A stretch of DNA of 64,000 nt from Streptacidiphilus sp. P02-A3a (GTDB lineage: Bacteria; Actinomycetota; Actinomycetes; Streptomycetales; Streptomycetaceae). Within the stretch, counting starts at the first letter, position 1. The number at the start of each line of letters is the position of its first letter. The stretch lies in assembly GCF_014084105.1 (NCBI RefSeq), contig NZ_CP048289.1, forward strand, positions 2,117,922 to 2,181,921, written 5' to 3'. Below are positions 31,121-52,123 of this stretch, one piece after another. Under the pieces are notes generated by a model. It was not told the DNA's origin. It did not search any database and was given only the letters and a program-made list of their open reading frames with translations. The translations under genes and the position numbers were made by a program.

Positions 31121-31173
31121 GCATGCTCCGGCTCGGGGGAGAGGGTGGTGAGGGAAGGCGAGGGGAACGCGGC

Positions 31174-33464: not shown

Positions 33465-36400
33465 GCGCGCTCCTCGTGTCGGCTGTCTCGGTCCGTGTCC
33501 AGGACGGCCAGGGGCACCCGGGTCGCCCGCCACCGGCCGTTCACGGTGGCGACCAGCGCGCCCGCCGCGACCAGCCGCCGCACGCTCCGTTCCAGCTCGG
33601 AGTAGGGGAGGCCGGCGTGCCCGCCGAAGTGCGGGCTGTCGCGCAGTGCCCGGGGCAGCGGCACCTGGCGCCGGTTGACCGGGTCGTACGACGCCTCCTC
33701 GCCGCGCAGGGCCCGCCACAGTGAGCGGGCGTGCACCCCGTGGCTCATCCGGCGGGCCAGACGGTAGGCCCGGTGGTCGATCCGCTGCTCGCGCAGGGCG
33801 TCGTCGGTGCCGCCACCGGCGCGTGGATCCGGGCTCTCGAAGGCCTGCGCGACGGTCGGGCGGCGCTGCTCCTTCGGCCAGTCGGGGACGGCCCAGCAGG
33901 CCGAGCAGCGGCACCGCGCGGTGCCGCAACATCCCGGTGGCAGATCGGCGACGCCGAAGTAGTCGGCGAACTTCCGTTGGGCGCACACCGCGGGTTCGTC
34001 GAAGAACGCCTTGAGCAGCGCGAGTTCCTCGCGGGCCAGCTGGGCGCGGCGGGAGACCAGCGGGAGGAAGCCCTCGGGCAGCCGCTCGTCGACGACCCGG
34101 ATGCCGGTGACCAGCCGTCGGCTGGGCGCGGCGGACACGTCGAGCAGCCCCCGGTCGTGCAGGTCGGCGAGGATCTCCCAGCCGGCGGCGGGGCTGTCGG
34201 CGACCTCCTGGTAGCCCTGGACGCTCCGCAGCAGGTGGGTGTGCAGGGTGTCCACGCGCAGCCGCGAACGATCCGGCAGGGACAGGGTGTTCTTGATGAT
34301 CGCGTGCTCCACGGCGTCGTCGCGGTCCGCCGGTTCGGGGCCTTCGCCGGTGGGGGGTCCCTCGCCTGCCTTGACCGCGCAGACCGGCGGGAAGTCGCCG
34401 AGGTCGACGACGGCTCCCAGATCGGCCAGCGCGCTGAACGCCCGCATCACGCCGCCGGAGTACCGGTCGGTGACGTGGCCCTTGCGGACCTCCTCCTCGT
34501 CGAGCAGCCCGGCGGCGAGGTCCTCCGCCACCAGCTCCTCCGCCAGCGCGACCGGATCGAGGCTGCCCCGTTGGCGCAGGACGGTCCGGCCCATGCGCCG
34601 GAGCAGCGACGGCGAGAGGTCCTGGGCGGTCATGAACCGGACGGTGCGCAGGCCCCTGCCGGTGGCCAGCGCCAGGGCGGTGTTCGCCACCTCGTCCCCG
34701 GCCCCGGAGCCGGGGTTGGCGGCGTCGCGCCCGGCCCGGCCGATCTGCTGGTACAGGGCGGCCAGGTCGGTGGGCGGGGACACGCAGAAGACCGTACGGA
34801 TGTCGGGCCGGTTCACGCCGAGCCCGAAGGCGGAGGTGGCCACGATGACGACCGGGGCGAAGCCCTCCTCGCCGTGACGGGGGGCCTCGCGGAACTCGGT
34901 CATCACGGCGGCCTTCTCGGCTTCGGAGAGCCGCCCGTGGAACCGCAGGACGCGTCTGCCGGAATCGCCGACGTACTCACGCAGGTGGGCGTGGAGGGCG
35001 TTGACCTCCTTGACGGTGAGGCAGTAGAGGATCGCGTGGCCGTCAGCCGCGTCCACCACCCGTTCGGCCAGGCCGGCGACCTCGGCGGTACCACCCCGCC
35101 GGAACGTGCGTCGGAAGATCGCCAGCTCCGGGCGGATCGGGTTCTCCCTGACCGTCACCAGTCCGCCGCGGTCGACCGGTCGCCGCGGCTCGGCCTGCTC
35201 CTCGGCCGAGCCGACGGCCGGTGGCTCGGGCGCGGTGCCGAACAGCACCTCCCGCAGGGTGGTGTGCACCGCGCGGTTGGCGGTGGCGGTCACCGCGGTG
35301 ACCGGCAGGGCGTGGTCCCGGCGCAGCTCGGCCAGGAACCGGCCCAGCCGCCGCATGCTGGGGCGGAAGTCCTCCCACTGCGCCACGGTGTGGGCCTCGT
35401 CGACGGCGATACGGGTGACCCGGCCCGCCGCCACGGCCTGGCGGACGAGTTCCCGGAACCGCCGCTGGCACAGGCGTTCCGGGCTGACGTAGACCAGCTT
35501 GATGCCGTGGTCGGCGCGACCCAGCAGCTGGTCGGCCACCTCGGTCTTGCCGGCCCGGCTGCTCGACTCCCGCAGCGGCGAGATGAGCGCCCGCACGGCG
35601 CCGCCGATCGAGCGGTTGAGCTCCAGGGCCTGGTCGTGGATGAGCGCGACGAGCGGGCTGACCACGATGGTGATGCCGGGCAGTACCAGTGCGGGCAGTT
35701 GGAAGGTGAAGCTCTTGCCGAAGCCGGTGGGCAGCAGCCCGAGGACGTTCCGCCCCTCGGCGGCGGCGGTGATCACCCGCTGCTGCGCGGGTTTGAGCGG
35801 TGCGGGCCGGTCGTCGAACCGGAGCAGGCGACCGACCTCGGCCGCCCGGTCCAGGACGGTCGGCACGAGTCGGCCGTCCTCCCGCAACCGGGCGGCCTCC
35901 TCGGCGGTGAGGGCGAGTTCGCGGATCCGGCGGGTGAACGGCAGCAGGGTGTGGCGCTCCAGTTCCTTCGGCGCGCAGAGCTCTGCCGCCCGGTCCGGTG
36001 CGAGCAGCCCGGCCGCGGACAGCGACTGCCAGATCCGCCGCCAGCCTTCGGCCATGGTGGTCACATTGCCGCCTCCCGGTTCACCCGTGACCGGGTCGGG
36101 ACGCAGCAGGCCCTCGTCCAGACTGCCGAGGAAGGCCTTCCGGTAGGCGCGGCGCAGCGCGGTGCTCCCGCCGAGTTTGCGGTCGCTGATCACGACGACC
36201 CCGCGATGGCGGTCGGACCGGATGAGCCGACCGACGGCCTGGCGTAACTGGATCGCTGCCAGCGGCAGGTAGTAGGCCTCGGTGGCGACGCCCTCCGGGT
36301 CCGGATCCCCGGCCGCTGCCGCGCGTTGCCGGACTGCCGCGCGGCGGGCCTCGACCACCGGTGCGGCGAAGGGCGCGAACGGGAGCTTGTTGATCCAGAC

Positions 36401-39370
36401 CAGCCGCAGCCGCCGCTCGTCCTTCACGTCGACGCCCTGCCACAACCCCTTGGTGCCCACCAGGAAGCCGCCGCCCTCGTCGAGGCCGGTGAATTCGGTG
36501 AGGGCCCTGCCGTTGCCCAGGACCAGGGCGTTGACCGTCGGAGCCGTGAGGCCGCGGCCACGGAGCTCCTGCTCCAGGAACTCGCCGACTCCCGCGGCGG
36601 TCCGCCGCGCCGTGGTGAGCACCATGGCGCCGCCGTCGTGTCCGTTGCCGTCCGCGCGCGGGCGGACCGTCTCCGCGGCGTAGCCGGCCAGTTGGTGGGC
36701 GACCGTCCGCATCGCGCCCTCCTCCTGTTCCGCCCAGGAGGGGAAGTCGGAGAAGCAGACCAGTTCGGCCTGGGCGGCCAGGTCGAACGGCGAGTCAAGG
36801 GCGAGCACCGGCATGGTCGCGGGCAGTCCGAGCCGGGTGCGGATGAAGTCCCAGGTCCCGGAGACCCGCAGGGTCGCCGAGACGTAGTGCACCCGTGGCA
36901 GCAACTGCAGGAAGCGGAGCCACTCCGGGTCCTCGGGCAGGTCGATCGGGCTGGCCGCGATCCGGAACCGGTACGAGCGCAGACCGGGCCGGGGTTCGGC
37001 GAGCTCCTCCAGGAAGACCACCCGGGAGGGCGGCCCGCCGGTGGTCTCGTCCAGGGTCACGGCCCCGGACAGCAGCGCGCCGAGGTCCTCGGTGAGGCGG
37101 ACCAGGGTGGTCGCGGTGTCCTCGGCACGGCGCGCGAGCGCGAGCACCCGCTCCTTCAGTAAGCCGTCGAGCACCTCGCCCTGCTCGACGGTGTAGCGGA
37201 CGAGCAGGGCGGACACCGAGCCGACCGCCCGGGCGAACTCGGTGCACAGGCGCTGGCAGGCGCGGGCCTCCGCGCTGCCGGACGTGCCCGCGTAGGGGCT
37301 CGCCAGCACCGCGCTGCGGCTGCCGATCAGGACCCCGACCCCGCGCGCCCGGGCGTCGAAGGCCCGGGCTGCGAGCCTCGGCAGCTGTTCCCCGTCGAGC
37401 AGGGTCTCCAGGGCGGCGACGGCGTCGGCGGCCCGGTCCCTGGCCGCCCCGGCCCGGGCGTCGGAAAGCCAGGCGGTGCACTCGGAGAACAGTTCCTCCA
37501 GGGCCTGGTAGTCGACGGCCGCGGTCAGCGCCGAGGTGGCGGCGTTCTCCAACTCGTGGGCCTCGTCGACGATCAGCAGGGTGTCCCGGCCGAGCGCCTG
37601 GAGGTCGTCGAGATGGGACAGCGCCAGCGCGTGGTTCGCCAGGAGCAGCCGATGACCGGTCATCGCCTCGCGCACGGTGTCGGTGTGCGCGGCGATCAGG
37701 CTGCGCTCGCTGGGGCCGTAGTCGCCGTCGCGCTGGGACAGCGACTCCAGCCACGGCCCGAGGGCGCGGTTGGTGTACTCGGAGAAGAACGCCGGAAGGT
37801 CCACCGGGTCCACTGACCTGGCCGTCCAGGAGAGCGGCGGCTCGGTGGCGGCGCCCAGGCGCAGCAGCAGGTACACGGCGAGTTCCCGGAACCCGCGCCG
37901 GTCCACCGGGCGGGGCCGACCGCGCGACTCGGACCGGCCCTGCGCGGCCTGCGCCAGCGCGGCGGTCAGCGCCGCCAGCGAGAGCCGGTTGGAGCGGCCC
38001 TTCACCAGGTCGCTGAGCTGGAGGAGCCCGGGGAGGGCGGCTTCGAGGTCCTTGAGGTCCTGTGCCAGCTGACTCTGCAACTGCTTGGTGAACGTGGCGA
38101 TGACCGCGGTGCGCCCGGGATCGCCCGCGAGCCAGTCGAGTGCGGCGGCCAGGACCGCGTAGCTCTTACCCGTCCCGGTGGGAGCCTCAAGCAGACCGGA
38201 GACCCCGGAGCGGGTCCAGTCGTGCAGCGTGGCCGCCATGAGCCCCTGGGCGTCCCGCGGTTCCGCCCTGCTCCCGTGGACGGCGGCGGCGAGCTCGGCC
38301 GGATCGACTCGGCCGTCGGGGCCGAGCAGCGCCTCCTGGAGCCGGACCGCGCCGCGGCCCCGCTGCTGCTCCTGGGCGTCCCTGCGGGGGATGTGGTGGG
38401 CGAGTCCGGCGCTGATCAGCCGCGCCACCCGGTTCTGGTCCCAGGCGACGGTGTCGGTGTCGGGCCCGGCCGCCGCGAGCTCGAAGAGCACGCGCCACGC
38501 GGGGGAGTCGCCGCAGACGGCCCGGACCAGGCCGCGCAGCTCCTCGTTCCAGCCCCGGACCTCCACGGCCGCGCGGGCCAGCAGACCGACGAGGAGTTCG
38601 GCGTCGTCCGGCGCCGTGTGCGGGCGCAGCCCGGTGGTGGCCGCGCCCGTCGCGGCGGCCAGGGCGTGCAGCCGGTGGGAGGGGGCGGTGGGCCAGATCG
38701 CGTGCGCCAGGTAGAGCGCGTCCGCGGTCCGGAGGCCGGCCAGCGGATCGTCGCACTCCGCGCGCCGGGCGGACTCCTGGACGAGGGGGAAGTCCAGGCC
38801 GGTCCCGTTGTAGGCCACCACGATGTCCGCTCCGGCGAGGAACGCGCGCAGCTCCTGCCACGCCAGAGCGGCCGGGACACCGCCGGTCCGTATCCGCTCG
38901 CGGACCGACGGGTCTCTGACCTCCGATATGTCGCAGTCGAGTCGCAGGTAGCGCTGCCACCTCTCGGCGGCGTCGGTCCAGTCCTGGTCCGTTCCGAACC
39001 GCACCGCCGCCGCCTGGTAGACGTGGCGTCGCAGGTACGGCTCCGCGTGGATGGCGGTGACCACGCTCTCCAGGTCGATCGAGACGACGCGGAGCCCCGC
39101 CCGCCGTGCGGCGGACGGGGGATCCACATCGCCTGCCCCGTGGTGGCTCTGCTCCGGCGTACCGGCGGTGACCAGCCGCCCGTCGCGCGGGGCGAGGAGT
39201 CCGGCGGCGACGGCCTGCTCCACGAGCTTGAGCGCCCGGACCCGCGGAAGGCCCGGATGGCGGTCGGTCGCGAGGGCCGCCAACGCGTCGGGCACCACTC
39301 CGTCCGGGAACTCCCCGGCCAGCACCGCGATCTGTCGGACTGCGGCGGAAACCCGCGAATCGTCACCCAA
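33461..39370 (-). CDS. DEDD exonuclease, DinG-like helicase and RecQ-like helicase triple fusion
   Basis: 1969 residues from TTG 39370 (GGGGGAG seven bases upstream). Residues 95-260 are a DnaQ-type exonuclease: SIDLESVV (Asp99, Glu101), VVAYNGTGLDFPLV (Asp193) and HTAPDDAELL (His251, Asp255/256). Residues 390-1070 are a DinG/XPD-like helicase: Walker A APTGTGKS, LLIVDEAHELENAA (602-605), FLVGTKGLWQGVDV and QAVGRLIRSDRHRG. The iron-sulfur Cys ligands of DinG are missing (KGRSNRLSLAA). Residues 1190-1600 are a RecQ-type helicase: LLPTGFGKSFTFQLPAL, IAVDEAHTVAQWEDFRP and LYQQIGRAGRD, with a later Cys cluster (GCCGTARCRCSACW) that may bind zinc. Predicted to unwind and degrade DNA in a defence context. 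The GTGA overlap couples it to the 641-residue protein. Confidence 0.88.
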   Translation of the reverse strand: MGDDSRVSAAVRQIAVLAGEFPDGVVPDALAALATDRHPGLPRVRALKLVEQAVAAGLLAPRDGRLVTAGTPEQSHHGAGDVDPPSAARRAGLRVVSIDLESVVTAIHAEPYLRRHVYQAAAVRFGTDQDWTDAAERWQRYLRLDCDISEVRDPSVRERIRTGGVPAALAWQELRAFLAGADIVVAYNGTGLDFPLVQESARRAECDDPLAGLRTADALYLAHAIWPTAPSHRLHALAAATGAATTGLRPHTAPDDAELLVGLLARAAVEVRGWNEELRGLVRAVCGDSPAWRVLFELAAAGPDTDTVAWDQNRVARLISAGLAHHIPRRDAQEQQRGRGAVRLQEALLGPDGRVDPAELAAAVHGSRAEPRDAQGLMAATLHDWTRSGVSGLLEAPTGTGKSYAVLAAALDWLAGDPGRTAVIATFTKQLQSQLAQDLKDLEAALPGLLQLSDLVKGRSNRLSLAALTAALAQAAQGRSESRGRPRPVDRRGFRELAVYLLLRLGAATEPPLSWTARSVDPVDLPAFFSEYTNRALGPWLESLSQRDGDYGPSERSLIAAHTDTVREAMTGHRLLLANHALALSHLDDLQALGRDTLLIVDEAHELENAATSALTAAVDYQALEELFSECTAWLSDARAGAARDRAADAVAALETLLDGEQLPRLAARAFDARARGVGVLIGSRSAVLASPYAGTSGSAEARACQRLCTEFARAVGSVSALLVRYTVEQGEVLDGLLKERVLALARRAEDTATTLVRLTEDLGALLSGAVTLDETTGGPPSRVVFLEELAEPRPGLRSYRFRIAASPIDLPEDPEWLRFLQLLPRVHYVSATLRVSGTWDFIRTRLGLPATMPVLALDSPFDLAAQAELVCFSDFPSWAEQEEGAMRTVAHQLAGYAAETVRPRADGNGHDGGAMVLTTARRTAAGVGEFLEQELRGRGLTAPTVNALVLGNGRALTEFTGLDEGGGFLVGTKGLWQGVDVKDERRLRLVWINKLPFAPFAAPVVEARRAAVRQRAAAAGDPDPEGVATEAYYLPLAAIQLRQAVGRLIRSDRHRGVVVISDRKLGGSTALRRAYRKAFLGSLDEGLLRPDPVTGEPGGGNVTTMAEGWRRIWQSLSAAGLLAPDRAAELCAPKELERHTLLPFTRRIRELALTAEEAARLREDGRLVPTVLDRAAEVGRLLRFDDRPAPLKPAQQRVITAAAEGRNVLGLLPTGFGKSFTFQLPALVLPGITIVVSPLVALIHDQALELNRSIGGAVRALISPLRESSSRAGKTEVADQLLGRADHGIKLVYVSPERLCQRRFRELVRQAVAAGRVTRIAVDEAHTVAQWEDFRPSMRRLGRFLAELRRDHALPVTAVTATANRAVHTTLREVLFGTAPEPPAVGSAEEQAEPRRPVDRGGLVTVRENPIRPELAIFRRTFRRGGTAEVAGLAERVVDAADGHAILYCLTVKEVNALHAHLREYVGDSGRRVLRFHGRLSEAEKAAVMTEFREAPRHGEEGFAPVVIVATSAFGLGVNRPDIRTVFCVSPPTDLAALYQQIGRAGRDAANPGSGAGDEVANTALALATGRGLRTVRFMTAQDLSPSLLRRMGRTVLRQRGSLDPVALAEELVAEDLAAGLLDEEEVRKGHVTDRYSGGVMRAFSALADLGAVVDLGDFPPVCAVKAGEGPPTGEGPEPADRDDAVEHAIIKNTLSLPDRSRLRVDTLHTHLLRSVQGYQEVADSPAAGWEILADLHDRGLLDVSAAPSRRLVTGIRVVDERLPEGFLPLVSRRAQLAREELALLKAFFDEPAVCAQRKFADYFGVADLPPGCCGTARCRCSACWAVPDWPKEQRRPTVAQAFESPDPRAGGGTDDALREQRIDHRAYRLARRMSHGVHARSLWRALRGEEASYDPVNRRQVPLPRALRDSPHFGGHAGLPYSELERSVRRLVAAGALVATVNGRWRATRVPLAVLDTDRDSRHEERA

Positions 39371-39546: not shown

Positions 39547-42219
39547 TCAGAGCGGCAGGATGTACTCCTCCGCCAGCTTGGCCAGGTGGAGCGGGAGCGG
39601 CCGGGAGAGCGGGTGGTACTCGTCGTGGAACCGCAGCTGGTGGGCGGCGGCGGCGATCACCGCCGGCAGGTCCGGCTCGACACCGGTGCGCCCGCTCGCC
39701 TCCAGGACGGAGGGCGAGAGGCAGCCCAGCACCGTCAGCTCCAGCGCCTGCGGGTTCCAGGCGGTGGCTGCCGGCCCGTGCGGCCAGGCCTGGTCCGGAA
39801 CCAGCTTGCGCAGGTCGCGTCGGACCGATCCGGCGGTCGGCGGCTTGCCGACGGTGCTGAGGAACACCCGCTGGTCCGCGCCCGCGCCCTGGGGCGCCCA
39901 CAGCCCGGCGGAGAAGCCCGGGGGTTCCTCCTCGGTCGGGCTGGGCGCGTACCACTGGGGCGTCTCGCCCCGGTTGTTCGCGTCACGCAGCAGCACCACC
40001 CGGAGGTTCGGTCCGTGCAGGGCCACCTGGACCGGTGACCGGCCGTGGAAGGCCACCCTGTCCTTCTCCAGCTGGCCGTTGCCCAGTCCCGGCCAGGCGT
40101 CGCGCAGGTTGCCGCTGTTCACCAGCAGCAGGGTCGGCCGCTCCCGCACCTGGAACAGCAGGGACCTGATCCGGCGCTCGGTGTCCTCCCGCCGCTCCGC
40201 GCTGGTCGGGGCGGTGCGACGGGTGCCCGCGTCGGCACCGGCCGCCGCGAGCCCGAGCAGGAAGTCGCCGTACGGCACCCACTGCTTCAGCTCGTCGTCC
40301 CAGCCGCGTACCGGGTGCACCGGGTCCTGGGGGCGGATCCGCAGGGCGACCAGGTGCCGACCGGCCGGGTGGGTCGGCCCGGTGGCGTGCCGCCGGACCT
40401 GCCAGAGCGCGACGTACTGGAGGTCGTCCGCCAGCCGCTGGTCCAGCCGCTGCTCCGGCGGGACCACGGCACCGAGGTGGCGCATCCCGTCGGCCACCGC
40501 GGAACGGGCCCGGAGCGAGGCGGGGGCTTCCGAGTCCTCCGGGACGACGATGAACTGGCTGACCCGACGGGCTCCGGCGCAGCCGTGGCGGAGCGCCGGC
40601 TTGGGGTCGGTCTCGGGGGCCGCCTCGAAGCGGCACGATCCCAGGGTCTCCACGAGGGCCAGCCCCAGCCGGTCCCGGCCGGAGCCGAGGTGGCCGGCCA
40701 CCTGGTCGGCCCGGTCGCGGATCGCCGTGGACGACGCCTGGGACCGGGACCGGCCGGGTTCCGCGTCGATCACCAGCGCCGCGCCCAGACCGCCGAGCGG
40801 GCGCGACCGCACGACCACGCGCAGACCGCCGACCTTCCACTCGTACGCGTCCCGGGCCTCACCGACGCCCGGCAGTCCGAGCCACTCACGCAGTGCGGCG
40901 ACCAGCTCGTCCCTGGTCTCCTCGGTCTGCCAGAGCACGTCCACCAGCAGCGGCTCGCCGTCCAGGGCGGCGCGTACCGCGGCCCGGCGCGCCTCGACGC
41001 GCTGCTGCGCGCGGGCGTCCCTCAGCTGCGGGTCCTTCGCCCGGGCAGTGGGCAGCAGCACGGGGGTGGAGCGCCGGTGCGCCCGCTCCAGGTCGGGCAC
41101 CCGGCGGAACACCGGTGCCAGGCACGCCTCCACCCAGCCGTCGATCAGCGACCGTTCCAGCGGCATCAGCCCGGCGCCGACCCCGTGCCTGCCCATGGCG
41201 GTGCTGTGGACCACACCGGCCGCCACGCCGTTCCGGCCGTCGAGCCAGGCGGCCGGGTCGGTGATCAGCTCGGTCGGCTCCGGGTAGGCACGCAGCACGT
41301 CGAGCTCCGGCAGCAGCTCGACCAGGCTGTGCCGACGCCAGGCGGCCCTGCCGAGGCTCCGGCTGAAGGCAAGCGTGTTCACGCTGAGGCGCCGTCGCGG
41401 GCCGTGGTCGCCGGGCCACGGCAGGGGCGTGTCGAGCAGCACGGTGGCACCGCGCCCCGGTGGCAGCCAGACCGAGGAGCCCGCCGCCCACCGGCGGATC
41501 CCGTACTCGACGTGCACGCGGGGGCCGGAGGCGAACGGCACCGTCTGCAGGGTGACGGTCACCAGCGCCGAGTAGTGCCAGGTGAGCTTCCCGCGGGTGT
41601 ACTGGCGCGGCGGCCAGCTCACCAGCTCGACGCCCTGGTCACGGGTGACGAGCCGGAAGGACAGGTCGACGCCGCCCAGCCGCAGCGGACGCGCGGTGAG
41701 CCTGGCTCCGATCTGCTCGGGCAGCAGGTGGTAGAGCCTGCGGTCGGGCTGGGCGGTACCGCCGCGGGACAGCTGGGTGGTGGTGAGATCGACGGACTCG
41801 GACCGCCACCGCGGGCTGTGCTTGTCGATCAGGGCCAGCGCCCGGTCCAACGCGGCGCGGTGGTCGGCCAGGCGTTCGGCGTCGCCGTCGTCGACGGGCG
41901 GCAGGGTCATCACCCAGGAGGCCAGCAGCGGGCCGACCAACTCGGCGGGCATCTCCTGCGAGGCGTAGAACCAGGGCAGTCCGCCGCCGCCGACGCCCGG
42001 GCCGGTGGCCACCAGGCCCGGGGCCGTCGCCCGGAGCAGCTCGTTCAGCTTCCGGACCGGCAGGCCGACCGGCTGCTCGCGGCGGCGCCAGCGCCGCCGG
42101 TAGAGGTCGGTGAACTCCGCGAGCCACTCCTCGGGGAAGTCCATCACCCGGTAGGGCTCGATCCAGGGCCCGGCGTTCGGGTCCGGCTCGTAGGTGGTGG
42201 TGCTGATCACGTGGTACAT
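39547..42219 (-). CDS. pPIWI-RE protein (prokaryotic Argonaute-like, RNase H-fold module)
   Basis: 890 residues from ATG 42219, preceded by GAGAGGAAC. The overall layout and neighbours match the pPIWI-RE family described by Burroughs and colleagues. There is a long N-terminal region with FPEEWLAEFTDLYRRRW and GIRRWAAGSSVWLPPGRG. A MID-like part (VDVLWQTEETRDELVAALREWLG) follows, and the C-terminal PIWI/RNase H-fold domain runs from RVSQFIVVPEDSEAPA through TLLLVNSGNLRDAWPGL and LRVVLLRDANNRGETPQWYA to HQLRFHDEYHPLSRPLPLHLAKLAEEY. The family is named for a conserved Arg and Glu and is thought to recognise RNA-DNA hybrids of invading elements. It overlaps the helicase gene by 13 bp. Family membership is assigned from pattern and from the classic three-gene context. 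Confidence 0.8.
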   Translation of the reverse strand: MYHVISTTTYEPDPNAGPWIEPYRVMDFPEEWLAEFTDLYRRRWRRREQPVGLPVRKLNELLRATAPGLVATGPGVGGGGLPWFYASQEMPAELVGPLLASWVMTLPPVDDGDAERLADHRAALDRALALIDKHSPRWRSESVDLTTTQLSRGGTAQPDRRLYHLLPEQIGARLTARPLRLGGVDLSFRLVTRDQGVELVSWPPRQYTRGKLTWHYSALVTVTLQTVPFASGPRVHVEYGIRRWAAGSSVWLPPGRGATVLLDTPLPWPGDHGPRRRLSVNTLAFSRSLGRAAWRRHSLVELLPELDVLRAYPEPTELITDPAAWLDGRNGVAAGVVHSTAMGRHGVGAGLMPLERSLIDGWVEACLAPVFRRVPDLERAHRRSTPVLLPTARAKDPQLRDARAQQRVEARRAAVRAALDGEPLLVDVLWQTEETRDELVAALREWLGLPGVGEARDAYEWKVGGLRVVVRSRPLGGLGAALVIDAEPGRSRSQASSTAIRDRADQVAGHLGSGRDRLGLALVETLGSCRFEAAPETDPKPALRHGCAGARRVSQFIVVPEDSEAPASLRARSAVADGMRHLGAVVPPEQRLDQRLADDLQYVALWQVRRHATGPTHPAGRHLVALRIRPQDPVHPVRGWDDELKQWVPYGDFLLGLAAAGADAGTRRTAPTSAERREDTERRIRSLLFQVRERPTLLLVNSGNLRDAWPGLGNGQLEKDRVAFHGRSPVQVALHGPNLRVVLLRDANNRGETPQWYAPSPTEEEPPGFSAGLWAPQGAGADQRVFLSTVGKPPTAGSVRRDLRKLVPDQAWPHGPAATAWNPQALELTVLGCLSPSVLEASGRTGVEPDLPAVIAAAAHQLRFHDEYHPLSRPLPLHLAKLAEEYILPL

Positions 42220-45200
42220 GCGGTGTTCCTCTCGGTTTCGATGGCGCTCAGGCACCGGTCGAGTGCCGACCACATGGGTCGGTACAGCGCCTGGACGATG
42301 TGGCGGTCGACCGCCGGGAGGGCGGTGCCCGCGGTGAAGTAGGGCCTGAGCGTGGCGTGGATGCTGTGGAGCAGGCTGGTCTGCGCGGTGTCCGGTTCGT
42401 CGGACGGACCACCGGTGGCGAGCCGGGGCGCGAAGGCGGCGTCGACGAAGGCGACCCGGGTGGGGACGGCGCCCCGGACGGAACGGCCGATCACCTGCCA
42501 GATGAGCACCAGGAGGTCCCAGGTGACCTGCGACCGGTCCTTGTCACTCAGCCGGCTCCAGGCCAGGCTCCGGGCGAGGACCGCGAACCATTCGGAGCGG
42601 GCGAGGTCGCGTACCGTGCGGGCGCCCTGGCCGAGCGTGGTTCCCTGGCGGACCCAGCCCGCGAACTCCCCGCTGTCCATGGCCCGGACGATCCAGTCGT
42701 TGATCGCGTGCACGGCGAGACCGAGGTCGTCGGGGCGGGGGTTGGGCCGGGCGAGGAAGTAGACGGACCCGATGGCCGCGTACTGCCGGTCGATGTCGAG
42801 GATGTTGTGTCCCCGCTCGACGGCCAGCAGCGGGGCCACCAGGAGCTCGGCCCCGGTCGAGGAGAGCGTCTCGACATCGCCCCGGCGCAGCACCGGTGCG
42901 TGGTTCTCGTCCTGCTCCGCCCAGGCACCGGCGTCGGGATCGTCGTCCGGAACCAGGCGCCGGACCCGGCCCCGCCACCGGCTGTTGAGGGTGTGCAGGG
43001 CGTCCGCCACCAGCGCGGCCTCCTCGTAGCTCCCGACGAGCAGCAGGATGTGCCGACGGGTCTCCGGCAGGAGCATCAGCTCCTCCTGGAGCCGGCTCGT
43101 CCCGTGGTCGTTGCGTCCGAGGACGGTGACCATCCGGCGCAGCACGTCGGGCCGCTGGTCGAGGGGTTCGCCGGAGAGCCGTAGCGCCTCATTGACGGAC
43201 TCGCACCGGCAGAAGGTCCGGCAGTCGCAGGCCTCGCGGGTGAACTCCAGCCGGAACTCGCTCAGTTCGGCGATCCGGTCCAGTCCCTGGCGGTCCGGCT
43301 CGATGATGGCACCGACCGGAACCCGCAGGTGGTAGCGGCTGGAACGGCCGGCCCAGCTGCTGCCCGACATCAGCAGCACGTTGGTGCCGGGGCGGCCGTC
43401 CACCGTCGGCAGGTCCGGCATCGCCCGGAGCAGCTCCCGGCCGACCCCGCTGCACCGGAAGAAGCGCAGCTCTCCGCTGCGGACCCCGCCCGGGTCCGGG
43501 CCGTCCATCAGGAACTGGAAACCGATGACGTTGCCCATGGGGGCCTCGGGCACCATCGGTCCGTAGTCCAGCGGGCGGCGGTACATCTCGTTGAAACCCA
43601 GCTTGAGCGCCGCCGCGACGCGCGGCCACATGGCGTTGACCAGCGCGAGCCGAGGTTCCAGCGCGCTCAGCAGGAGGGTGAACTCGAAGCGGTTCAGCAG
43701 CAGTTCCAGCCAGTCCTCCGGCTCCTGCGGCAGCCGCTCCCGGCGCCTGCGCCTGGCCGCGCCGCCACCGCCGCGGGTGCTCCTCGCGGGCTTCTCCGGT
43801 CCGCCGTTCGCCTGTCCGCGCAGCCGTTGGTAGCGCTCGCGTCCGGCCTCCGTGGGCTCCAGCAGGGAATGGAGGTCGAACAGGTCGCACAGGGTCGCCT
43901 TCAGTCGGCCGCGGGTGTTCTCGCGGTAGGTGGTGTGCAGGAGTTCGCCGAGCAGGCTGGTGAGCCGCGCGCCCTCGGGGCCGGGCGGGCGCCGGTCGCC
44001 GAAGGCGTTGTCACGGAAGGCGTCCAGGATCTCGATGAGCCGCTGCCGCCGCTCCCGGTACGGGTCCTCGGCAGGCTCCGCGGCGTCAGCGTCGGGCTCC
44101 CCGGGGAGCGGGTAGCGCTCCTCCAGCAACCGGAGCTGGAGGGTCCAGGCACTGAAGTACCCGGTGCGGACCCAGGTACGCAGGTCGACGTCGCGCACCA
44201 GCATGGCGACCAGCCGGTCGGCGGCCGTCTGCGTCGTGTTCACGGCGGCGGACCAGTTCTCCACGTCCCGGTTGGACAGCTGGATCTGTCCGGCCCCGGC
44301 CAGCTCCCGGAGCCGGTGCTGGTTGACGTCGTAGAGGAAGGAACGGCTGTCGGACTGGTCCGCGATCAGTGGCACAGCTGGGGCGAACATCCGGTCGAGC
44401 TGCATCTGGACCCGGTCCGCCTCGTCGACGATGACCAGATCGCTTCTCCGGCAGGCGAGTTCGAGATAGCGGAGCCGCTCGTGGTTCTGCGGGTGCGGCA
44501 CCGTCGAGTCGATCAGGCTGGCGATGGTGGCGACCCATACGGTCGCCCCGACGAGGGCCCTGGCGCCGTGGTGGCGTGGCAGCCCGACCAGAGGGGACAG
44601 GCCAGTTTCTCCTGCCGCCACGCCTCGTCCAGTGGGTCGCGGCGGCGCTGCGGAGCGCGCAGCCGGGAGCACGGGGCCTCGCTGAAGTCGAGTGGGATGT
44701 CGTCGAGTTGGCCCTCGTCGTGGAGCAGCGCGTTCACCGCGCACGAGGTGCTGAGGTAGTCGAACCCGGAATCGTCGTGGGCGAGCAGGTTGCGTCGCCC
44801 CCGGCCGGTGAGCCGCCGATGGAGCCGTTCGGCGTGCTGCTGCCGATTGGAGGCGCCGATCACCGGAGCAGCCGAGCCGGGTACGTAGGTGTTGTACCGC
44901 TGGACCAGCTTGAGCTGCTCGGCCACGTCCCCGACGACCACGGTGACCCGCAGGCCCTGGCGGGCCGCATGGACCGCCAGGATGTCCCGCAGCGTGCTCT
45001 TGCCGACCCCGACGATGCCCAGGAGGTGCTGGATCCGGGCCACTTCGAGCCGGTCGGAGGGCTGGAACCGGCCGTCGCGGTCGGTGAACAGGTGGATGGC
45101 CGCCAACCGGCCGACCCAGTTCTCGAAGTTCCGCGAGTCCATGAAGGCCACCGTGTCGAGCAGTTCGGCCCGCTCGAAGGCGAGCGGCGCGCCGTTGTTC

Positions 45201-45763
45201 GTCGGGAGCACGTCCAGGTCGTGGCGTTCCGGGGGTGGCAGCGCGAACTTCGGGAGGGTGACACTGGTCAGCTGCCGACCGGTCGGGAAGGCGTGCCGCC
45301 CGGCGCCCGCGACCTCCAGGGGCTGCCCGGCGAAGACCGGGGCGAACTGGAGCAGCCGGTCGTAGGCCTCCCAGCGGTTCGGCGCGACGGACAGCGCGGG
45401 GCGGCGGACGGCGGGGCGCTCGGGATCCGTGACGTCGTAGGCCCGTAACTGGCGGTCCAGCCGCTGGTAGTCGTCCAACGCCTCGCGCCAGGCAAGCCGC
45501 CGCCCCCAGATCCACATGGTGTACCGGGCAGTGCGGAGCGTCCGCTCCTCCGCCCGGCTGACCGCGCCCCAGGCACGGGCGAACGGATATCCGCTGAAGA
45601 GGGGCCACGCCTCGGCGGCCGCCTCGCCGCGCGCGAAGCGCTCCTGGAGGTGCAGCCCGAGTTCGACCTCGCACAGGAACTGTAGCCGTGGCCTGCGCAA
45701 CTCCGGTGCGGCCATCGATAGTTGATCGATCAGTGGGGCCAGGGACTCGGTACTGCTACGCAT
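42207..45763 (-). pseudogene. DinG-type helicase of the pPIWI-RE module, apparent frameshift
   Basis: The gene reads from ATG 45763 in one frame to about 44575 and then must shift frame to continue to 42207. The first part has Walker A LLGIVGVGKSTLRDIL and four Cys spaced as in DinG/XPD iron-sulfur helicases (STSCAVN, EAPCSRL, KLACPLWSGC). Near TGCCACGCC on the coding strand one C appears to be missing: adding it joins CPLWSGC to PRHHGARALVGATVWVATI. The second part has SDLVIVDEADRVQMQLD and the C-terminal helicase lobe, with an extra Cys cluster (CDCRTFCRC). Unshifted, the first frame ends at 44513. This may be a real inactivating indel, a sequencing error in a GC run, or recoding. The gene overlaps the endonuclease gene by 8 bp. 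Confidence 0.78.
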
Positions 45764-46814
45764 GCTCGCTCCTGGTTTTGTCGGCCGACTCATGGGTGAC
45801 GAACTCGCTGACGGACCACAGCCGCACCTGGGCGCCGCCCGGCAGCGCCCGGTCGAAGGCGCGCCGGTACGTCCGGTCCGCCGCCCCGCGGTCCGGAACG
45901 ACCACGTCGAGGTGCCCGCCGAACCGCTCGGCCACCTCGGCCGCCCGCAGCGCGGCCGGCACCGGCTGCGCCCGGTCGTACACCAGGTAGGCGCGCGGTG
46001 ACCGGCCGGGGCCCGGGATCTGGTGCACACCGAGGTCCACCGAGAAGGGGCCGGACCGTGGCCCGAGACGGGACCGGACCTCAAGCTCGGTACGGCCGGG
46101 GAGGGCTACGAACAGCCGCAGCGCTCGCGTCAGCGCCAGCGCCTGGCCGGGCTGGTGCGAGACGTCGAGCTTGCGGTCCTCCGAGGCACAGCCGCCCTCG
46201 CACCAGGGGCCGTCCGCCGTGTCGGCCTTGGCGAGGAGCCCGCAGCCGGAGCAGCTGTGCACGAGTCCCTCGGCCGGGAAGTGATCCGGCACCGGCTTGT
46301 AGAGGTCCTTGACCAGTCGCCAGGCCTGGGCCCGGGACGGTTGCAGCATCTCCGTCGGGTCGAATCGGAGCACGACCGGACGGTGGATCAGGAAGTCGCG
46401 GCACTGGGCGAACCTGGGGATGCTGCCGCAGCTGTCGGCGAGCTTCGCCATGAGGGATTCCGCCTCCTGCTCCAGGACGCCGTCCGGACCGAGCGAGGCC
46501 AGCTCGGCGCAGGTCCGGGTCGGCTCGATCGCGGTCCGACTGATCAGCCGGGAGCCGTCCGTGAGGAAGCCCGGGGGGACCGGCAGCCACTCCCGCGGCT
46601 CCCGTTCGCGACACCAGACCAGCAGCTCCGGTACCCCGCGGGGCACCGCGACCCGGCGGCTGAGCCCGTCCAGGACCACTCGGTCCAGGGCGAGTTGGAG
46701 ACTCGGCGGGTACGGCAGGCGGAAGCCGGACGACTGGGCGGCGTCTGCCAGGCCGACCACTCCCCGGGCGACCGCGGTGAGCGGGCCGGTGTCCGGCGGC
46801 GGGCTCGCGGTCAC
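45756..46814 (-). CDS. restriction-endonuclease-fold protein of the pPIWI-RE module
   Basis: 352 residues from GTG 46814 (GGAGG seven bases upstream, GTGA overlap with the upstream gene). A zinc ribbon is visible (VHSCSGCGLLAK ... WCEGGCAS). It is followed by LALTRALRLFVALPGRTELEVRSRLG and FSVDLGVHQIPGPG, which holds acidic residues fitting a PD-(D/E)XK core, and RAYLVYDRAQPVPAALRAAEVAERFGGHLDVVVPD. This order and context match the REase partner of pPIWI-RE modules. It is expected to cleave DNA of invading elements after recognition by the PIWI protein. The exact catalytic residues cannot be fixed by eye. Confidence 0.72.
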   Translation of the reverse strand: MTASPPPDTGPLTAVARGVVGLADAAQSSGFRLPYPPSLQLALDRVVLDGLSRRVAVPRGVPELLVWCREREPREWLPVPPGFLTDGSRLISRTAIEPTRTCAELASLGPDGVLEQEAESLMAKLADSCGSIPRFAQCRDFLIHRPVVLRFDPTEMLQPSRAQAWRLVKDLYKPVPDHFPAEGLVHSCSGCGLLAKADTADGPWCEGGCASEDRKLDVSHQPGQALALTRALRLFVALPGRTELEVRSRLGPRSGPFSVDLGVHQIPGPGRSPRAYLVYDRAQPVPAALRAAEVAERFGGHLDVVVPDRGAADRTYRRAFDRALPGGAQVRLWSVSEFVTHESADKTRSEHA

Positions 46815-48382
46815 GGTGCGGCCTCCGCCTCGGGCTGCCGGGCCGAGCACCAGCGGGCGACCTCGCAACCCGCGCATTCCGGGCCCGGAACCGCCTCGAA
46901 GGCGTCCTCGGAGTGCCAGGTCGCCACCTGTTCCCGCAGGGCCGCCTCGGCGGCGGCACGGGTGTCGGGCTGGAACGGGTCGAGGATGTGCAGGTCGACG
47001 CCGCCGGGCTGTAGTACCTCCAGTTCGACCCGGCCGCCGGCCGACCCGCCGCGGAGGATGCCGGCGCCGATGATCCGCACCGCCAGGGCGAGTTGCGGGT
47101 ACCAGCCGAAGAGGTCACGACAGCTTCGGTCACTGCCGGACGTCTTCGTCTCCCGCCAGACCGTGATCCCGTCGCGGTCCTGGTAGAGCAGGTCGGGCTC
47201 GGCCAGCACGACCAGGTCGGCGGCGGTGTCGTCGAACGCGAGTTTCGGCTCGATCCGCAGCCCTGGATCCGCTCCGACGACGCGCAACGGGCAGACCTCG
47301 GCATGGTGGCGCAGCAGCAGCGCACCGAGCCGGCGCTCCTCGACCGGGAGCCGGAAGCCCTCGGGTACCCAGTCGTCCGGGATCTCGACCTGGCACGGGG
47401 CGCACGGCCGACGACCGTGCCGAGCCGCCAGGAACGCGTGGATCGCCCGTCCCCGCTCGGCGGCGGCTCCCCGCTCCAGGCTGTCGTCGACCGGGAGCCG
47501 CAGACCGCGCAGGTAGCCGCGGGCGGGGCAACTACGGTGCGCCCGGGCCGTGGTCGAGGACCAGGTACGGCGCGGGCGGCTCCGGTCGGCGACGCCGAGC
47601 AGGCCGTCGGTCCGCTCCAGGCCCGGGCACACCGGGGCGATGGCGCAGCCGGCGCAGGCCGCGCCGGGCCGGTACTCCCGGGAGCCCAGCAACGCCCGCA
47701 CAGCCGGGGCGCCGTCGGCGCGGTGGGCGGCGACGGCCTCCGACCGGGTGCCCTCGAAGAGGGTGTCGACCTGAGCGTCGGCGAGCGCGAACTGGACCAC
47801 CCTGACCCGCTCGACCCGTGGGTCCGACGATCCCTCGGCGGCAACCAGGGCGGCGATGGCGCGCTCCACCGGGGTCCGGGCCCGGAGCCGCTTGACCGGC
47901 AGCCGCAGCTCGCGGCGACGCCCGTCGGCGGATTCGAAGCAACGGCCCCAGGCACTGATCCGGTAGTCCAGCGTGCCCGAGCCGTCGGGTGCCGGTCCGC
48001 GGTACTGGTAGACCCAGGGCGCGGGGGCGGGGTGGAGCCCGGAGTGGTCCGGGAAGGCTTCGGCGTACATGCGCAGCGCGTGCGAGGTCCACTGCCGCAC
48101 GCCGTCGTGGACCGGACGCCGCCGCCCGCCGCGCAACGCGCCCCGGCGCCGCTCAAGCACATCGGCCTGATCCATGAACGGCCCGTTCAGGAACGTCTCC
48201 AGCGCCTCGGGCTTCCGGCCCGGCTGCCGACGCGGACGGAGCCCGCTGGCCTTGAGCAGGTCGGACACCGGGCAGTGGTACTGCTCCGGGCCGAACATGC
48301 CGAGGGTCATCCGGACGCCGGAGGAATCGCCGACCAGCCCGTCCGGCGGCCAACTCCCTGCCATACTGTTCTCACTTTCCAT
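46811..48382 (-). CDS. Cas4/RecB-like PD-(D/E)XK nuclease with iron-sulfur-type cysteines
   Basis: 523 residues from ATG 48382, the first gene of the minus-strand train. The catalytic core is DLVVLAEPDLLYQDRDGITVWRETKTS, an Asp followed by Glu-X-Lys as in RecB-family nucleases. Cys pairs are arranged as in iron-sulfur nucleases: CAGCAIAPVCPG in the middle, CAPC, and CAGCEVARWCSA near the C-terminus. Such enzymes degrade or trim single-stranded or duplex ends, as Cas4 and AddB do. ATG 48382 is only 33 bp from the divergent kinase start; an in-frame ATG at 48364 (MAGSW) is possible. It is not part of the minimal three-gene pPIWI-RE set and may be an accessory nuclease. Confidence 0.78.
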   Translation of the reverse strand: MESENSMAGSWPPDGLVGDSSGVRMTLGMFGPEQYHCPVSDLLKASGLRPRRQPGRKPEALETFLNGPFMDQADVLERRRGALRGGRRRPVHDGVRQWTSHALRMYAEAFPDHSGLHPAPAPWVYQYRGPAPDGSGTLDYRISAWGRCFESADGRRRELRLPVKRLRARTPVERAIAALVAAEGSSDPRVERVRVVQFALADAQVDTLFEGTRSEAVAAHRADGAPAVRALLGSREYRPGAACAGCAIAPVCPGLERTDGLLGVADRSRPRRTWSSTTARAHRSCPARGYLRGLRLPVDDSLERGAAAERGRAIHAFLAARHGRRPCAPCQVEIPDDWVPEGFRLPVEERRLGALLLRHHAEVCPLRVVGADPGLRIEPKLAFDDTAADLVVLAEPDLLYQDRDGITVWRETKTSGSDRSCRDLFGWYPQLALAVRIIGAGILRGGSAGGRVELEVLQPGGVDLHILDPFQPDTRAAAEAALREQVATWHSEDAFEAVPGPECAGCEVARWCSARQPEAEAAP

Positions 48383-48414
48383 GATCCACCATTTCTCTCC
48401 GTGGGGCGGTCATA

Positions 48415-49311
48415 TTGCTTCCTGGCACCTTGCTCGTCGGTCGTAAGGGCACGTACCGGATGGTCCGGGAGCTCGACAAAGGGGGAATGGGCGAGATCTA
48501 CTTCGGCCGCGACCTGAACCTCGGGAAAGAGGTGGCAATCAAGCTGCAGACCGCTCGGACATTTGAGTCCTCCACCGAGTACGGCGAGTATGGCGAAGGC
48601 ATTTCCCGGGAGTTCCATCTCATGCGGGAAATCCTGGATGTCCGCGGGATCCCCCAGGTGATCGACGAGGGGGAAAACGGGCGGAGCGGTCGCCGATTCC
48701 TGGTCATGGAGCTGGTCGACGGCGTCACCGCCGCGCGCTGGATCGAGGACCACATGCCGGTCCCGCGGGAGGCGGCGGTATCCGTTGTCGGTCAGCTCTG
48801 TGAGATTCTCGGTCAGCTGCACGAAAGGCATTACGTCCACTGCGATGTCACGCCGAAGAACGTGATGATCCAGTCCGACGGCCGTGTGCGGCTGCTGGAC
48901 GTGGGGATCTCCGTGCCGGTCGGCGAGCAGCACGAGTGGCCGTGCGGAAGCCCGGGCTACGCCCCGCCGGAACAGCACCGGGGCTCGCGGCTCACCCCCC
49001 AGGTCGACGTCTTCGCGCTCGGCGCGCTGCTGTTCCAGATGCTGGCGGGTCAACTGCCCTACGCCGGTGTGGAGTACCCGTTCGACGGAACCGAGCAGCC
49101 GTTCCCGGGCGGCCTGCGGGCGGTGATCCGCGAGGACCTGCTGAGCCTGGGACTGTCGATGGTCTCGCTCGCCCCGCGGCAACGCCCGAGGGCGGACGAG
49201 CTGCTTGGATACCTGCGGCCGATGCTGCCCCCATTCCGGTCGGCCACGCCCCCGAACGCGACGCGACCCGATCCGGCCGCCTACTACCGTCGCGGACTGT
49301 GGCGATCCTGA
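48415..49311 (+). CDS. serine/threonine protein kinase divergent from the conflict operon
   Basis: 298 residues from TTG 48415. The kinase fold is complete: glycine loop ELDKGGMGEIYFG (residues 19-31), VAIK with Lys43, catalytic loop HCDVTPKNVMI (His142, Asp144), and DVG (162-164) in place of DFG. YAPPEQHRGSRLTPQVDVFALGALLFQML is the activation-segment and alpha-F region. There is no transmembrane or PASTA part, so it is cytosolic. The Cys in place of Arg in HRD suggests activation not dependent on activation-loop phosphorylation. Its start lies 33 bp from the nuclease gene, so the two share a control region. A regulatory or effector role in the defence island is plausible but unproven. Confidence 0.85.
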   Translation: MLPGTLLVGRKGTYRMVRELDKGGMGEIYFGRDLNLGKEVAIKLQTARTFESSTEYGEYGEGISREFHLMREILDVRGIPQVIDEGENGRSGRRFLVMELVDGVTAARWIEDHMPVPREAAVSVVGQLCEILGQLHERHYVHCDVTPKNVMIQSDGRVRLLDVGISVPVGEQHEWPCGSPGYAPPEQHRGSRLTPQVDVFALGALLFQMLAGQLPYAGVEYPFDGTEQPFPGGLRAVIREDLLSLGLSMVSLAPRQRPRADELLGYLRPMLPPFRSATPPNATRPDPAAYYRRGLWRS

Positions 49312-49341: not shown

Positions 49342-52041
49342 TCACAGCTGGCTCCGCAGCCGCCGCACGGCGGCGTCGGGATCGGCCTCGCCGAGCCCGG
49401 CCAGCAACGACCGGGCCTGACCGAGCGCCTCGGCCGCCATCAGCGGCCGGTCGGCGAGCAGCAGCGCGTCGGCCAGCCAGAGCAGCGTCCTGGCCTGCCG
49501 GCTCGGATAGCCGAACGACCGGTACAGCCGCAGGGCGCGGGCGAGCGAGGCGATGGCGCGCCTGGTGTCGCCAAGGGCCAACTCGGTCCGGCCGAGGCCG
49601 AACCACGCGCACGCCTGACCGTTGAGGTCGTCGGTGTCCGTCAGCAGGCCCAGCGCCCGTCGGCAGTACTCCTGGGCGAGGTCGAACCGGCGCAGGTCGT
49701 AGTGGGCGACACCGATGCCGTTCAGCGCCCCTCCCTGACCGAGGACGTCGCCCAGTTCCTGGAACGCGGCCAGCGCGGCGGTGTGGTGCGTGAGCGCCTC
49801 GCCCGGCGCGCCGGTCTCGCGGAGCATGACCCCGAGCGCGCTGTTGCCGAGCGCGGCCCCGCGCACGTCCCCGCTCTCCTCGCTCAGCCGGACCGCGCTG
49901 CGCATCTCACGGGTCGCCGGGGCGAGCTCCCCGAGGCCGCGATGGGTGCCGCCGATCATCCGGTGCACCATGGCGACGTCCGCCGGCGCCGCCACCCGCC
50001 GGGCCGCTTCGAGCGCGGTGGGCAGATGGCGGAGCGCGTCGAGGTAACGGCCGGAGCGCCACTGGAAGGCGACCAGCACCATGGGCAGGAGCCAGGTGTG
50101 GCGGTCGAGCCCGTGTGCCTCGGCGGTACCGATCACGGCCGTCAGCGTCGAGTACTCCGCCTCGAACCAGGCCGTGGCATCGGCCACGGTCCGAGGTATG
50201 TCGATACGGATCCCCATCGACACTATCGGCAGGTTGCGGTCCGGATCGAGCAGACGGTCGCAGGCCGACGCGTTCTGCAGCAGGAACTCCAGGATCCGTT
50301 CGGCCACCCCGACCCGTTCGGCCTCGCCCTGCCGCGCCGCCAACTCCCCGGCGTACACCCGGAGCAGGTCGTGCAGTTCGAAACGGGCGTCGGCGGTCTC
50401 CTCCAGCAGGTGGGTGCGCTGGAGTTCGTCGTTGGCGAGCGAGACCTCGTTCGGGTCGTCCGGCCAGAGGGCGCGAAGAGCGGACCAGCTGATCGAGGGG
50501 CCCGGGTGGACCGCCAGCTGCCAGAACAACCGCTTCGCCGACGCGGGAAGGAGATTGTGCGACACCTCGAACGACAGCCGCACACTCTGGTCGTCGGAGC
50601 CCAGGTCGAGCTGACGCAGTCGGGTGCTCGCGGCGCGCAGGCCGCGGCTGATGTCCCCGACCGACCCGGGGCCGTGCGCGATGACCCGCGCGGCGATGAT
50701 GCGCAGTGCCAACGGGACTCCCGCGCAGTGCTCGACCAGCTCGTCGAGGAAGGGCGAGGCCAGGCCGGTCCGCTGCTCGCCGAGCTCCGCCCGCAGCAGC
50801 TCCAGCGAGGCGGTCCGGTGCAGCGGCGCCAGGTCGATCATGTCGGCGCCCTCCTTGATCGCCAGACCGTGCAGCCGGCGGCGGCTGGTGATGATCGCGG
50901 CGCTGCGCCCCAGGCCCGGGAGCAGGTTCCGGACGTGCTGCTCATTGCGGGCGTTGTCGAGAACCAGCAGCACGGCCCGGTCCGCGAGCGCGGTCCGGTA
51001 GGCGGCGAGCATGCCGTCCCGGGTCGGGGTGTCCGGTGCCACCCCGAGGTCGTTCAGGAACCTGACGAGCAGGTGCTCGTACCGCTCCGGCTCCTGCGCG
51101 TTGTAGCCGCGCAGGTCGGCGTACAGCGTGCCGTCGGGAAAGTACTGCTCCACCGTGTGGCCCGCGCTGACCGCGAACATCGTCTTGCCGACACCGGGCA
51201 TGCCGGAGATCGAGGCGATCTTGGCCCGGGCCGCGGTCCTGCCGAGCAGGGTGCTGCCGAGGCGCTCGATCTCGTCGCTCCGGCCGACCAGGACGGGTGG
51301 ATGGGGAGGCAGTTGGCGAGGCACCGAACGGGGCGGCGAGGGCGGCAGCCCGGGCGTCGCGGGCGTCGTCGCCCGCGCGAGCAGCAGGTGCACCGTGGAT
51401 CGGCGGAACCGCTGCTCCCAGTCCCGCAGGAGCGGCTCGATCTCGTCCGGGCGCCCCAGGGCCGTCAGTATCCGGACCCTGAGTTCGAGCAGCGGCTCAC
51501 TGTCCGGCCACTGCGCCTGCGCGTCCTCCACCCGACGGTACGCGGCGTCGAGCCGTCCGCACTCCAGCTCGGCGCGGACACAGTCCACGGTCGCCTCCCG
51601 GAGCTGGGCCAGGAGGCGTTCCCGCCGTCTGGCGAACTCAGCGCCGGGCAGCCCGTGCAGCGGTTCCCCCCGCTGCTCCGCGAGCGCCGCCCGGATCGCG
51701 GACAGCCCGGCAGCCGGGTCCTTCGCGTCGGCGGCGGTGCGCCAGTACGTGAGAAATCGTAGGTAGTCGACCCGAGCGGGGTCGATCTTGAGCCGGCAGA
51801 ATCCGGTACGGTTCACCAGCGTGATATCCGGGACTTCGAGCCGCAGCTTGCGTGAATACTGCCTGATTCGAATGGTGTTCGATTCACGGTCCGGCCAGAC
51901 GCACGCGTTGATCTCCGCGTGCGCCGCGGTTAAATCGGGTGCCAGTAGTAGGACGGCCAGGAACTGCAGGGTTCTCGGCTGAATCTCCACCATGTCCTCA
52001 CCCTGACGGACCTCCACCCGCCCCAGGATACGGATCTCCAT
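49342..52041 (-). CDS. SARP/AfsR-type regulator (BTAD, NB-ARC and TPR domains)
   Basis: 899 residues from ATG 52041, preceded by AAAGGGGG. The N-terminal winged helix is atypical (EIRILGRVEVRQGEDMVEIQPRTLQFLAVLLLAPDLTAAHAEINACVWPD). A BTAD region follows (residues about 100-245), then NB-ARC with VLVGRSDEIERLGSTLLG, Walker A ISGMPGVGKTMFAVSAGH and Walker B AVLLVLDNARNEQHVRNLLPGLG. The C-terminal half has tetratricopeptide repeats. It probably activates genes nearby in response to an internal signal. The closest divergent gene is a small basic protein at 52239; the kinase and defence genes lie on the other side. Confidence 0.88.
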   Translation of the reverse strand: MEIRILGRVEVRQGEDMVEIQPRTLQFLAVLLLAPDLTAAHAEINACVWPDRESNTIRIRQYSRKLRLEVPDITLVNRTGFCRLKIDPARVDYLRFLTYWRTAADAKDPAAGLSAIRAALAEQRGEPLHGLPGAEFARRRERLLAQLREATVDCVRAELECGRLDAAYRRVEDAQAQWPDSEPLLELRVRILTALGRPDEIEPLLRDWEQRFRRSTVHLLLARATTPATPGLPPSPPRSVPRQLPPHPPVLVGRSDEIERLGSTLLGRTAARAKIASISGMPGVGKTMFAVSAGHTVEQYFPDGTLYADLRGYNAQEPERYEHLLVRFLNDLGVAPDTPTRDGMLAAYRTALADRAVLLVLDNARNEQHVRNLLPGLGRSAAIITSRRRLHGLAIKEGADMIDLAPLHRTASLELLRAELGEQRTGLASPFLDELVEHCAGVPLALRIIAARVIAHGPGSVGDISRGLRAASTRLRQLDLGSDDQSVRLSFEVSHNLLPASAKRLFWQLAVHPGPSISWSALRALWPDDPNEVSLANDELQRTHLLEETADARFELHDLLRVYAGELAARQGEAERVGVAERILEFLLQNASACDRLLDPDRNLPIVSMGIRIDIPRTVADATAWFEAEYSTLTAVIGTAEAHGLDRHTWLLPMVLVAFQWRSGRYLDALRHLPTALEAARRVAAPADVAMVHRMIGGTHRGLGELAPATREMRSAVRLSEESGDVRGAALGNSALGVMLRETGAPGEALTHHTAALAAFQELGDVLGQGGALNGIGVAHYDLRRFDLAQEYCRRALGLLTDTDDLNGQACAWFGLGRTELALGDTRRAIASLARALRLYRSFGYPSRQARTLLWLADALLLADRPLMAAEALGQARSLLAGLGEADPDAAVRRLRSQL

Positions 52042-52123
52042 CACGTCGCCCCCTTTCGCGACCCCTCGCGACCGGCCGATTCGGCCGCCCTGGGAAAGCA
52101 TGGCACGGTCCGTGCGGGGGCGA

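Follow-up and report, generated by a model that had tools for sequence, protein, structure and literature searches.

Few branches of the Argonaute superfamily have been tested as little as the pPIWI-RE proteins. They were described as part of a three-gene island in which an REase gene is followed by a DinG-type helicase gene and the pPIWI-RE gene, and the published model is that pPIWI-RE senses RNA-DNA hybrids, DinG unwinds and the REase cuts (Burroughs, Iyer, Aravind 2013; PMC3702460). A single biochemical study was found, on the PIWI-RE of Pseudomonas stutzeri (PsPIWI-RE), so that the earlier note on this DNA was fair in calling such modules scarcely tested. That protein acts on RNA-DNA pairings only and has guided nuclease activity, and its knockout is ciprofloxacin-sensitive; the results point to replication or division and not to plasmid or phage restriction (PMC10991935). 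Two systems with kinases are also relevant here: AfsK-AfsR of Streptomyces, in which AfsK phosphorylates AfsR (PMC6988585), and MADS, with its kinase MAD6 and methylase MAD2.

The window (the whole stretch of 64,000 nucleotides analyzed here) belongs to a 9.33-Mb single-contig genome of Streptomycetaceae type. Its locus shares with the three-gene island the gene order, the gene overlaps and the domains X, Y, Z, MID and RNase H, but it also has a PD-(D/E)XK nuclease gene upstream and, divergently oriented, a kinase/AfsR-like module, both absent from the text of that paper. The four core proteins match the PADLOC-DB families PprPIWI, PprDinG, PprRE and PprPDDEXK, whereas neither the kinase and regulator nor the methylase of related loci match any Ppr model, and the subtypes described below are not evident in those models. 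PsPIWI-RE belongs to the same protein family and has a DinG and a nuclease gene nearby; unlike the Streptomyces clade, which is without an acid at the predicted first catalytic position, it has the catalytic residues D525 and D610. As in AfsK-AfsR, a Ser/Thr kinase is accompanied by a BTAD/NB-ARC/TPR regulator, but the proteins are not orthologous by the NCBIfam equivalog cut-offs (48.8 versus 1300 bits for the kinase against AfsK; 240 versus 1430 bits for the regulator against AfsR, despite an E-value of 3.7e-71 and a like domain architecture). The pairing of kinase and methylase in MADS resembles our type II loci, but scores lie far under the NCBIfam MADS cut-offs (73.7 versus 460 bits for the kinase against MAD6) and the core proteins match Ppr models instead. 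We suggest that the system should be seen as a six-gene cassette, made of a four-gene core operon and a divergent control module (a Ser/Thr kinase and an AfsR/SARP-like STAND regulator).

The core operon and its interrupted helicase gene

Four overlapping genes were confirmed on the minus strand, encoding in order the nuclease, the Y-domain REase, the DinG helicase and the pPIWI-RE protein (Table 1). All five Pfam domains of the island and all four Ppr families of PADLOC-DB 2023 were matched, the latter by adjacent genes, which completes the PADLOC four-gene set. The hits to every pPIWI-RE family bear out the core triad proposed from the sequence by the earlier note, including its Argonaute-like protein with an RNase H-type domain and its zinc-ribbon endonuclease, in which C182, C185 and C199 are 100% conserved among homologs. 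The boundary drawn in that note, at the end of the core, left out the two associated genes of the control module.

Table 1. Features of the pPIWI-RE cassette, in window coordinates
Feature	Position	Strand	Evidence and remarks
pPIWI-RE protein (X, MID, RNase H-like)	39547..42273	-	pPIWI_RE_X PF13111 2e-114, MID PF18157 1e-23, RNaseH_pPIWI_RE PF13032 5e-69; PprPIWI 4e-227; probable start ATG at 42219, overlapping the helicase stop by 13 nt
DinG-type helicase, interrupted	42207..45793	-	N part, with pPIWI_RE_Z and Walker A, 44513-45793; C part in another frame, ~44573 to 42207
Frameshift site in Cys-rich CPRHHG motif	44570..44585	-	DNA alignment
Y-domain/zinc-ribbon/REase protein, PprRE	45756..46877	-	pPIWI_RE_Y PF18156 8e-32; PprRE 8e-81
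PD-(D/E)XK (RecB/Cas4-type) nuclease, PprPDDEXK	46811..48382	-	PDDEXK_1 PF12705 8e-17; PprPDDEXK 4e-127; by comparison with relatives, start probably the ATG near 48364
Divergent intergenic region between nuclease and kinase	48383..48414	.	Head-to-head in all 55 kinase-bearing loci
Soluble Ser/Thr protein kinase, conserved C-terminal PDPTxxYR-type tail	48415..49311	+	PF00069 6e-31
AfsR/SARP-like regulator (BTAD + NB-ARC + TPR), convergent with kinase	49342..52101	-	PF03704, PF00931, PF13424

Alignment with 13 relatives revealed that the loss of one base at about 44578, within the Cys-rich motif CPRHHG, splits the helicase gene; the missing base is one C in the run coding for CPxWSxCPRHHG, which is read through unbroken in all 13 relatives (one with Q for the second H). 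The N part carries the pPIWI_RE_Z domain (PF18155, 5e-42), detected only with the correct helicase frame, the Walker A motif GIVGVGKST and three of the cysteines, and the C part matches PprDinG at 2.5e-168. Of the open reading frame at 42207-45674 (1155 aa), the first ~367 codons are not in the helicase frame, and only the C-terminal ~788 residues are helicase. What had been read as a DinG-type helicase with four Fe-S-type cysteines is therefore correctly identified but is not a single open reading frame, with three of the cysteines in the frame of the N part; likewise, the four genes do overlap as had been stated, but in this genome the DinG gene among them is frameshifted. The two parts form one open reading frame in 65 of 66 nuclease-bearing loci and are split in the window alone. 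Programmed frameshifting was considered and ruled out, as the relatives read through in a single frame. The nearest relative of the locus is that of Kitasatospora mediocidica, against which the core genes and the kinase gene have dN/dS values of 0.27-0.37; because the two helicase halves have similar values (0.28-0.31), the break is either recent or an assembly error. Unless the deletion is such an error, this copy of the system is probably inactive, and our comparison supplies intact loci as test material in its place.

In 51 non-redundant homologs of the nuclease (residues numbered from position 48355 of the window), H313, D388, E402, K404 and ten cysteines are invariant, the latter including C276 and a C-terminal CxxCx5C (C494, C497, C503). 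Together with the Pfam match, this agrees with the PD-(D/E)XK nuclease with Cys pairs recognized at the outset, and the conserved residues are as expected for a RecB/Cas4-type enzyme that holds one or two metal clusters. For the PIWI protein, none of 55 sequences had a D or E at residues 624-629, the first strand of the RNase H domain as placed by strand prediction. The protein appears to lack the first RNase H aspartate, and cleavage by it seems unlikely because of the absence of an acidic residue there; judged from conserved residues, the clearly intact cutting site here would be that of the Cas4-like nuclease. Several R and E residues of the PIWI protein, R784, R863, E752 and E827, are invariant and are candidates for the named conserved R/E pair. 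AlphaFold models had a mean pLDDT of 37 (PIWI) and 39 (nuclease), too poor to confirm active sites, and a sequence-profile search found no relatives of PIWI-RE or the nuclease with solved structures.

A divergent kinase and three subtypes

The kinase of the window (298 aa) lies head-to-head with the core operon. Across 53 locus kinases, residues K32, H131, D133, N138 and D151 of the catalytic K, HxD, N and DxG do not vary, and the C-terminal PDPTxxYR-type tail is nearly invariant too; these kinases are apparently active. The genome of the window encodes only ~18 kinases matching the profile. On the kinase tree, the locus kinases group together, with weak support for the whole group (56/79) and full support for the type I clade (100/100).

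We quantified the association of kinase and core across genomes, in a sampling almost wholly of Streptomycetales (outside the order, it included two Nostoc plasmid triads and a few actinobacterial loci). Because a protein query missed the second pPIWI-RE of the genome under study, family models were used for counting; among 392 genomes from the order, 94 contained RNaseH_pPIWI_RE, versus 6 of 396 sampled from the phylum. No relatives of the system were found in a phage collection. With tblastn, a kinase appeared beside nearly every nuclease-bearing locus among the first 29 loci, and profile searches placed it in 25 of 27 nuclease-bearing loci and in none of seven pPIWI-RE loci without the nuclease. 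The rule derived from these 27 was then tested on fresh loci, for which 77 more were scanned (two additional nuclease-bearing ones duplicated earlier loci). The kinase was present in 28 of 37 fresh nuclease-bearing loci, the nine exceptions forming one clade with the two earlier ones, and in 0 of 38 without the nuclease, a set that includes one degraded locus (L121) and four stretches shorter than the others.

Overall, 66 loci bear the nuclease (51 when loci with 95% identity or more are collapsed), and the order and strand of the core genes are conserved in all of them. The nuclease is a constant partner in a large pPIWI-RE clade; its co-occurrence with these loci agrees with the earlier note, although "added" was not the right term for a gene that marks the whole clade and is already catalogued (model PprPDDEXK of PADLOC-DB 2023). 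A kinase is found in 55 of the 66 versus 0 of 45 loci without the nuclease (Fisher p about 1e-20, a value that overstates independence as the loci are related by descent, so that the clade pattern is the better statement). In all 55, the kinase is on the opposite strand and head-to-head, with a gap, measured between homologous segments, of 38-290 bp, or of ~2.2 kb when a methylase gene lies between. Other than the regulator and the methylase, flanking families present in at least three loci are limited to a few close groups, and changing flanks rule out simple vertical synteny as the cause of the kinase linkage. No paper connecting a kinase with pPIWI-RE was found in the literature covered, which takes in few subscription journals or bioRxiv preprints, so that an earlier mention is possible.

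In the PIWI tree, the 66 loci split cleanly into three clades with exchangeable divergent modules. Type I, which includes the window, has a kinase and an AfsR/SARP-like regulator; its PIWI proteins, like its kinases, form a supported clade (24 loci, 19 non-redundant, support 100), and the regulator, 919 aa long in the window, is present in all 24. Type II (30 loci) combines a kinase with an HTH-N6-adenine methylase (PF02384), whose gene separates kinase from nuclease in some loci and lies downstream of the kinase in others; in one related locus (L057), the kinase stands alone. Type III (11 loci) lacks the kinase, and therefore the kinase is not obligatory for the core. Most type III loci carry instead a divergent three-gene module whose third gene encodes an SF1-type helicase, and one (L153) carries a divergent methylase in its place. 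Through this comparison, the four listed genes become part of a defined cassette that has a conserved kinase, exchangeable partners and three named subtypes.

A possible mechanism and its alternatives

The locus belongs to type I within a large clade of Streptomycetales pPIWI-RE systems, and we lean, with some reserve, toward reading it as a restriction-type defense cassette under kinase control. The comparison shows the gene content and order of the loci, their conservation and co-occurrence, and the conserved catalytic residues of kinase and nuclease; the defense role, the recognition of hybrids, and kinase control with its target are inferences. The PIWI protein, probably non-cutting, would bind a guide/target (RNA-DNA) hybrid on foreign replicating DNA; the DinG-type helicase would open the target or translocate along it, and the REase and the Cas4-like nuclease would destroy the target DNA. 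Across the short divergent promoter region, kinase and regulator would keep this machine off or tune it, with the kinase phosphorylating either the regulator, as AfsK does AfsR, or the core proteins. Phosphorylation control is suggested because a kinase and an AfsR-like protein lie beside a divergent promoter, by analogy to AfsK-AfsR; judging from scores, lower against AfsK than against PknB, the analogy is architectural only. More tentatively, and with slightly less than even confidence, we propose that Streptomycetales pPIWI-RE immunity in general is phosphorylation-gated: a dedicated kinase, paired with an AfsR-like STAND regulator or an HTH-N6-adenine methylase, would license a guide-binding machine of PIWI, helicase and two nucleases, and control modules would pass as whole units from one clade of this core to another. 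No experiments showing defense by a nuclease-bearing pPIWI-RE locus were found in the literature covered. Two questions now become directly testable: whether these loci act in defense, and whether phosphorylation is their switch.

Other readings concern mainly the kinase or the role of the core. The kinase could itself be an antiphage effector, a suicide kinase of the PD-T4-6 or Stk2 kind that adds a second, independent layer beside the nuclease operon. Its best PADLOC family is indeed PD-T4-6 (3e-45), and types II and III have other modules at the same place, but PD-T4-6 models match many Ser/Thr kinases; moreover, the unvarying head-to-head placement and the shared phylogeny across 55 loci, together with the absence from the 45 loci lacking the nuclease, speak for a functional link to the core, and we regard an effector kinase as unlikely. 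We give marginally less credit still to a role in DNA repair or replication, in which the core would process R-loops or stalled forks and the kinase would respond to damage. DinG-type helicases do act on R-loops (PMC3702460), and the P. stutzeri piwi-re knockout is affected in division as well as in its response to ciprofloxacin (PMC10991935); yet a housekeeping function fits poorly with the patchy distribution of the system (the 94 of 392 genomes of the order, 0 of 13 congeners), its changing neighbors, and the broken or fragmentary copies seen in several genomes.

Kinase and AfsR-like regulator could also be passengers on the island that have targets of their own and do not act on the core. 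Streptomycetes have many kinases and SARP regulators, and type III does without both. Against this, the divergent promoter arrangement is conserved, the modules are partitioned exactly by clade, and few other flanking genes are conserved, so that we consider it the least probable of these alternatives. Kinase control of a defense cassette remains the reading that we prefer.

Neighboring genes and related loci

Downstream of the core, three co-directional genes occupy 25184-39370 on the minus strand. They encode a 1969-aa DnaQ-like/DinG/RecQ fusion (33461-39370), a protein of ~650 aa without a known family (~31539-33470) and, at 25184-~31738, a protein of ~2180 aa that is weakly AAA-like. All three are kept in L009 (Kitasatospora mediocidica), L197 (G020) and L168 (G133), and the third gene also occurs at L160 (G605). 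The fusion is found in 11 of 392 genomes of the order, six with pPIWI-RE, four of these within 30 kb. It was considered as a fifth core gene and rejected, given this rarity, the five genomes without pPIWI-RE, and the fact that, of the remaining loci in the first set, L009 alone had it beside the core; the three-gene set looks like an unnamed candidate defense system that tends to adjoin pPIWI-RE loci. Directly downstream of the DnaQ-DinG-RecQ operon of L168, an 876-aa gene (L168:16630-19260) joins the HTH part of a triad first gene with the MID-RNase H portion of a pPIWI-RE protein, as though an in-frame deletion had removed the X domain and the helicase.

The second pPIWI-RE triad of the genome, at 356 kb (L042:2354-11135), consists of a first gene with an N-terminal HTH, DinG and PIWI, without nuclease or kinase. 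Relatives of the nuclease occur without PIWI on plasmids of S. albidoflavus (L080:8734-12436) and Rhodococcus antarcticus (L081:8569-12140), followed by a hypothetical gene and a convergent gene for an ImmA/IrrE-type metallopeptidase, i.e., another use of the nuclease family. Near the methylase of two type II loci (L082:4205-6940, L090:11679-14267) are two further Ser/Thr kinase genes, which in the kinase tree make up two paired lineages. One type II subgroup has, directly downstream of PIWI, a gene of ~460-500 aa and no known family (L055:6004-7392, L056:5872-7383, L048:12235-13779). The three-gene module of type III, as in L164:10053-15036 and also in L155, L160, L161, L163, L165-L167 and L049, encodes proteins of about 300, 385 and 640 aa, of which the first two gave no significant Pfam or PADLOC family.
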